From NCBI GenBank assembly GCA_018242445.1, contig JAFEBW010000005.1:1-55528 (forward strand): a DNA stretch of 55,528 bases, given 5' to 3'. Below are positions 973 to 1,166 of this stretch, one piece after another. Made by a program: the position numbers and the translations under genes. The notes under the pieces are model-generated. The model was not told the DNA's origin, did not search any database, and worked only from the letters and a program-made list of their open reading frames with translations. This stretch comes from Pseudomonadota bacterium (GTDB lineage Bacteria; Pseudomonadota; Gammaproteobacteria; Xanthomonadales; Xanthomonadaceae). The number at the start of each line of letters is the position of its first letter. Within the stretch, counting starts at the first letter, position 1.

Positions 973-1127
973 GTCGATTCTCCTGATTCCCTGCCTTGCG
1001 GAAACGGGCTCGTGGCCCTGGCAACTGTTCGGGATGTGAAGAAAGACTCCGCACCGACCCTGGCTCCCCCACGATCTCGTAATCTCAGGGATATCGGTCT
1101 GGGGCGGAGGCGGAAACAACTTACAAG
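973..1127 (-). ncRNA. Candidate bridge RNA of the IS110 element
   Basis: This is the non-coding segment upstream of the transposase, on the same strand, where IS110-group elements encode their bridge RNA. Two adjacent stem-loops can be drawn. Stem A pairs ACCGA+CCCUG (1086-1098, with a UAU bulge) with CAGGG+UCGGU (1053-1062) around a 23-nt loop. The 3' side of that loop reads GUGGGGGAG, complementary to CTCCCCC at the edge of the neighbouring REP. Stem B pairs GCGGA (1048-1052) with UCCGC (998-1002). Its loop contains ACAGUUGCC (1020-1028), matching the element's 3' end ACAGTTGCT, and ACGAG (1009-1013), which can pair with CTTGT at the 5' end if one G-T wobble is allowed. The order (target loop, then donor loop) is that of known bridge RNAs. 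Pairing was judged by eye; no left-target guide was found. Confidence 0.5.
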
Positions 1128-1166
1128 AGGGTTATGACTTTGTCGTGTTCGGACGGACACTCGACT

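Follow-up and report, generated by a model that had tools for sequence, protein, structure and literature searches.

The minus strand of the stretch analyzed here (55,528 nucleotides, hereafter the window) carries at 1125-977 a predicted bridge RNA, which very probably guides an IS110-family element to the sequence CC-CT-CCCCC at the edge of a REP-like palindrome. A first-pass annotation of the same DNA had proposed that an RNA directs insertion into REP edges by base pairing, and this proposal is supported by guides that change together with the flanking DNA across relatives of the element.

The window starts inside the 3' junction of a minus-strand element and, at its far end, runs into a second copy with identical orientation, of which only the 3' end is present (55425-55528, minus strand, cut by the window end and 100% identical to 2-105). 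Including its CT cores, the first element occupies 2-1127, as judged from its junctions in the own genome (16 left and 15 right). These junctions place the 5' core at 1127-1126 and the 3' core at 3-2 (minus strand). The CT noted earlier at both ends therefore stands, whereas the start of the element had to be corrected: with the 5' core at 1127-1126, the element proper begins at 1125. Most of its length is taken up by a recombinase (transposase) gene of 317 aa (972-19, minus strand), whose product matches Pfam PF01548 and PF02371 and scores above the cut-off of NCBIfam NF033542, the "IS110 family RNA-guided transposase". Residues 143-312 additionally show a weak NCBIfam match to a TIGR-Tas endonuclease (22.5 bits, cut-off 100). 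Only about 15 bases separate the stop codon (21-19) from the 3' core, so that only the segment upstream of the gene has room for an RNA.

The genome is a draft in which contigs break at copies of the element. The 16 left and 15 right junctions were obtained from 32 matches in this genome together with locus L197 and mostly lie on separate contigs; whole target sites are available for two copies only, paired via the gene order in congeners (L001 with L026, and L012 with L029). In the four congeners (G001-G004) the genes flanking two copies are adjacent, but the stretch beside the insertion does not align, so that these genomes served solely to pair the contig ends. There are at least 15 copies with ends that are 98-100% identical. 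One of them (L004 with L002, on contigs C64/C65) apparently lacks most of query bases 100-914, a deletion that takes out the donor loop along with most of the gene.

The structural support for the predicted RNA comes from relatives of the element. We gathered 120 relative loci, namely 40 genome stretches and the best 80 of 230 contig matches, and built a covariance model from 44 non-redundant left ends drawn from those best 80, the window being excluded. This model matches the window over its full length at 1125-977 of the minus strand (94.3 bits, E = 5.3e-26), and its only other match in the window reaches 4.3 bits; an Rfam scan of the window, on the other hand, gave no family at gathering score. 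Nineteen of the 25 consensus pairs are changed on both sides among the relatives, a level equaled in none of 500 shuffles, so the stems do covary. In the alignment 95.4% of the cells pair, compared with 34-46% when the structure is slid along it, although the structure itself stems from the alignment on which it is scored, a circumstance in its favor. Folding energy was discarded as evidence, since the single-sequence energy of the window segment is no better than that of shuffled sequence (z = -0.16). Under strict filters, the model finds a match in 31 of 149 genomes of the same family (the own genome included) and none in the four congeners. The many near-identical copies, combined with the lack of a match in these congeners, suggest a recent spread.

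The two adjacent structured loops described earlier on the minus strand upstream of the transposase gene are confirmed by this model. The target-loop stem is predicted to be formed by a 5' arm at 1096-1110 and a 3' arm at 1047-1059, with 11 of 12 pairs changed on both sides in relatives. Farther along the minus strand, the donor loop contains a conserved hairpin, GGGCCACGAGCCC (1006-1018). It is in this hairpin, GGGC-CACGA-GCCC, that the ACGAG (1013-1009) lies which had been taken for the guide to the 5' end. We rejected ACGAG as a donor guide, as it is GCAAG together with UU that follows the donor end when relatives are compared. The left guide CCCU and the right guide GGGG of the target loop (1064-1093) are mutually complementary and are paired with each other in the predicted fold; a C-rich target may cost the bridge RNA a self-closing loop.

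Guide positions were assigned by reading the relatives' alignment against IS621 (PMC11208158). The right target guide, GGGGG-AG (1070-1064, minus strand), pairs at positions +1 to +5 with all 15 right flanks, 11 times with Watson-Crick pairs throughout and four times with a single G-T. It forms part of GTGGGGGAG (1072-1064), correctly recognized before as complementary to CTCCCCC(AC), and CTCCCCC with its CT core indeed adjoins the 3' end of the right-hand copy. Short matches in GC-rich DNA had been named as a weak point, yet the fit exceeds chance: in every right flank, positions +1 to +5 contain nothing but C and T and would pair with GGGGG, compared with 130 of 5157 CT sites in the window (2.5%). 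None of the 15 right junctions seen in the draft genome lies at a site unrelated to the guide.

A left target guide, which the first-pass annotation had failed to find, does exist, namely UAUCC-CU (1093-1087, minus strand). The own left flanks fit it at -1, -2, and -3, with C at -2 in 16/16, C at -1 in 15/16, and C or T at -3 in 15/16 (T giving a U-G pair). The outer positions -4 and -5 fail in the own genome; the A of the guide at -4 is found in only three of the 16 flanks. The string CTCCCCC occurs 368 times in the genome (187 times when read backwards) and CCCTCCCCC 165 times (74 backwards). Compared with genome counts, finding CC before CTCCCCC in 15 of 16 left flanks has P = 5.5e-5, an approximate value because the right ends of the copies themselves are among the counts and every junction is treated as CTCCCCC, while four of the 15 right flanks are C/T variants. 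The core is CT at all 15 right junctions and at 14 of the 16 left ones, the other two (L009 and L013) carrying TT. This fits a left core supplied by the target, and by analogy with IS621 the right core would come from the donor, with cleavage after the core.

The donor loop can be read in the same manner. The left donor guide ACAGUUGC (1028-1021, minus strand) equals the 3' end ACAGTTG-C, and in relatives the two vary together; the last bases differ in L077 and its kin. The near identity of ACAGTTGCC (1028-1020) in loop B to the 3' end ACAGTTGCT had been pointed out before and holds. The right donor guide, UU-CC-GCAAG (1003-995, minus strand), consists of GCAAG (999-995) and UU (1003-1002), which pair with CTTG and AA of CTTGTAA, respectively. 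Its two-base part tracks the donor end in relatives: CTTGTAT goes with AU in 35/37, CTTGTGT with AC in 4/6, and CTTGTAA with UU in 2/2, the classes being unequal in size and the last made up of the window and G064. UU is also found in 11/37 of the CTTGTAT class.

Handshake bases were identified by the rule described for IS621 (PMC11208158). In the window, the first is C at 1063, which can pair with donor base G4, and the second is G at 994, which pairs with a target C present in 15 of 16 left flanks (both minus strand). Among 52 relatives, a set that does not include the window, the target-loop handshake base pairs with donor base 7 in 50 (shuffled mean 39.4), and for the donor-loop base and target base 7 the count is 36 of 42, against a shuffled mean of 24.0; neither count was reached in 10000 shuffles. 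A second handshake base in the target loop pairs in only 18 of the 52.

Joining the two ends of the element would bring a putative -35 box, TTGACC (17-22), and a putative -10 box, TAAGTT (1118-1123, both minus strand), into the arrangement TTGACC-17-TAAGTT, a weak candidate promoter with 8 of 12 consensus bases that would exist in the joined form only. In the relatives, a promoter score of 9 or more is reached in 31/40 joined ends and in 1/37 integrated ones.

Taken over from IS621, the pathway would run as follows. Excision would yield a circle whose joined ends form the promoter, and from it the bridge RNA (1125-977) would be transcribed and bound by the recombinase. The target loop would then pair with both strands of CC-CT-CCCCC at the edge of a REP-like palindrome of the host, UAUCC-CU and GGGGG-AG reading the target around the CT core, while ACAGUUGC and UU..GCAAG would read the circle junction. 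Finally, the strands would be exchanged at CT. Transcription, binding, and activity are transferred by this analogy. The guide matches might also be a record of past activity only, the bridge RNA of the window copy having since decayed. The joined-end promoter with its score of 8, next to the 9 or more seen in most relatives, would fit such decay, as would the outer left-guide bases that are not obeyed and the internal deletion of the C64/C65 copy. The recent spread suggested by the near-identical copies speaks against it, however, and so does the open recombinase frame of the window copy. We consider decay improbable, though it is the most serious of the alternatives.

The next question is whether guides and flanks change together across relatives. 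For the right guide, 87 of the 120 loci yield both a guide region and a 3' end by rule (33 were dropped), and 55 elements are left after adding the window and removing similar ones. Strict pairing over five bases with the own flank is found in 32/55, compared with 2.1% for swapped flanks and a permuted maximum of 8; allowing G-U, the values are 41/55, 7.8%, and 13. Even with G-U, 14 of the 55 remain below five pairs. The left guide is identical to the flank over five bases in 22/37 elements (1.7% when swapped, permuted maximum 6) and falls below five in the other 15. These 37 omit the window and L113, the left flank of the latter being a copy of its own guide; both had been included in a first version of the test (39 elements, 23 full).

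Individual relatives illustrate this co-change. In the family search, G064 has the next-best model score (93.7 bits), and its ends CTTGTAAG and AACACAGTTGCT and much of its donor loop are common to the window element. Its recombinase shows 76% identity over 25 residues, only end pieces being present on the contigs examined. The target loop of G064 differs, reading UUGCCC-CU and GGAUG-AG, and its flanks differ accordingly: GCCC closes its six outer left flanks, and CATCC opens the four right flanks retrieved. The left guide of G194 is GUCG, matched by GTCG in four of five left flanks. The guides of G010 and G061, UUUAGCCG and GUAGGAG, match GCCGCTCCTAC.

The repeats of the hosts follow a similar division. 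The palindrome arm beside the 3' end of the right-hand copy (55405-55426), CCCTCCCCCGC, is abundant in the own genome (136 times, 5 when read backwards) and occurs only 1 to 7 times in G064, G010, G061, and G194. Conversely, GCCGCTCCTAC is found 387 times in G010 and 379 times in G061 (60 and 48 backwards, respectively) and 0 times in the own genome (79 backwards). An abundant matching repeat was not shown for G064, where GCCCCTCATCCG was counted just 8 times (0 backwards). Our label "REP-like" rests on abundance and palindromy. In three congeners that yielded no copy of the element (G001, G002, and G004), repeats like the one at 1167-1202 occur as well, so the element does not make those repeats. 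In G010, two IS110 lineages (L089-L095 and L081-L088) use one palindromic repeat with cores three bases apart, namely GCCG-CT-CCTAC and GCCGCTC-CT-ACG.

Recognition of the REP palindrome by the recombinase itself, through shape or sequence and with the RNA-like segment as a by-product, was the usual view of REP-seeking transposases before 2024 (as presented in PMC1525189), and an inverted arm is indeed present in 13 of the 15 right flanks. The remaining two (L021 and L022) lack the arm and still fit the right guide, and G064, which keeps the ends and a similar donor loop but differs in its target loop, is inserted at different sequences. For these reasons RNA pairing is favored. The preference for palindromes among relatives is, moreover, only modest, 10 of 36 sites reaching a stem score of at least 7 (8.5% of controls) and none of the 36 a score of at least 10, whereas their guides fit the own flanks strongly and their target loops vary in step with the flank. 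Protein recognition alone is thus very unlikely. Equally hard to uphold is a segment that merely regulates the transposase gene as a 5' leader or small RNA, with incidental flank matches: it does lie directly upstream of the gene, and ISPpu9, also found in REPs, is reported with small RNAs and a structured leader (PMC8450116), but the swap tests exclude incidental matches for the family. A regulatory role may nevertheless exist beside that of the predicted guide.

Some left ends carry a further signature. In L095, L113, L198, and L201, which represent three lineages, the left end is joined exactly at CT to a copy of its own left-guide DNA; L199 shows left-end joining as well, and tandem partial left ends are the result. 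L198 and L199 have repeats that end at another CC-CT within the left end. The scan covered 131 RNA anchors, redundant copies included, and L095, missed by the scan rule, was checked separately. Nested insertion was rejected as the source of these duplications, as its far junction was not found in G064 (a weak absence, since the draft breaks at copies) and the right flank of L095 is ordinary REP-like sequence; a search of four other genomes with that pattern does not bear on this point. The duplications may reflect self-targeting or slippage, and slippage between left target and left guide, which are short direct repeats by design, possibly explains them just as well. A rather speculative reading is that bridge-RNA elements in this family of bacteria follow the REPs of their hosts by rewriting the target loop: left-guide DNA is a half-target by construction and would be recombined into, and the tandem half-loops would supply material for new guides. 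Titles and abstract openings in the open-licence literature gave no account of a bridge-RNA element recombining into its own guide gene, a weakly supported negative.

The window has some other features of its own. The segments 1304-2092 and 54402-55280, which bound 53 kb here, map to a single contig in each of G001, G002, and G004, where they are 18-21 kb apart and their order is exchanged, pointing to a rearrangement or an assembly matter inside the window. An exact 96-base direct repeat is found at 16551-16646 and 16741-16836 (190 bases start to start), and further palindromic or clustered repeats lie at 30784-30823, 39066-39105, and 27212-27449.

In short, the REP-seeking bridge RNAs gain a predicted member whose target is very short and rich in C. 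Together with its relatives the element forms a natural series of guides and targets, in which related elements fit the repeats of their own hosts, and the association of REPs with IS110 elements becomes testable as guide evolution. For engineers of bridge recombinases, a single guide with 16 left and 15 right junctions provides natural mismatch data.

Among known systems, REP association of IS110 elements was listed as early as 2006 (PMC1525189), including ISPpu9 and ISPpu10 of P. putida, members of the same family with 7/7 copies each in REPs. No account of the present element was met in titles and abstract openings of the open-licence literature, again a weakly supported negative. ISPa11, an IS1111-group seekRNA element, is described as targeting P. 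aeruginosa REPs (PMC11187229), in a paper that also reports how a sister element was redirected in nature (ISEc11/ISXne4). Such elements share RNA-guided site choice with the one proposed here, but their RNA usually lies downstream of the gene, whereas here it would be the upstream segment; this element lacks the long non-coding right end of the IS1111/seekRNA type. Compared by sequence with solved structures, the recombinase best matches ISCro4 (structure 9t56, E = 5e-39), with IS621 at E = 3.2e-37. IS621 is described as entering E. coli REPs under bridge-RNA control (PMC11208160). As portrayed in PMC11208160 and PMC11208158, it resembles our element in its recombinase family, the left-end RNA with a target loop followed by a donor loop, the CT core, guides on both strands, handshake bases, and REP targets. 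IS621 also has a joined-end promoter, of which the counterpart here is no more than putative (8/12). The two differ in their sites, the REP site of IS621 being ATCAGGC-CT-AC instead of CC-CT-CCCCC, and in the reach of the guides, as the left guide is effective here over about three bases outside the core and the right guide over five. With an IS110 recombinase of the DEDD/Tnp_20 type, a covarying left-end RNA, CT cores, target guides that fit the insertion site, donor guides that fit the ends, and handshake bases that pair, the element is a well-supported further IS110 bridge-RNA element, with a predicted mechanism that has already been published for IS621.
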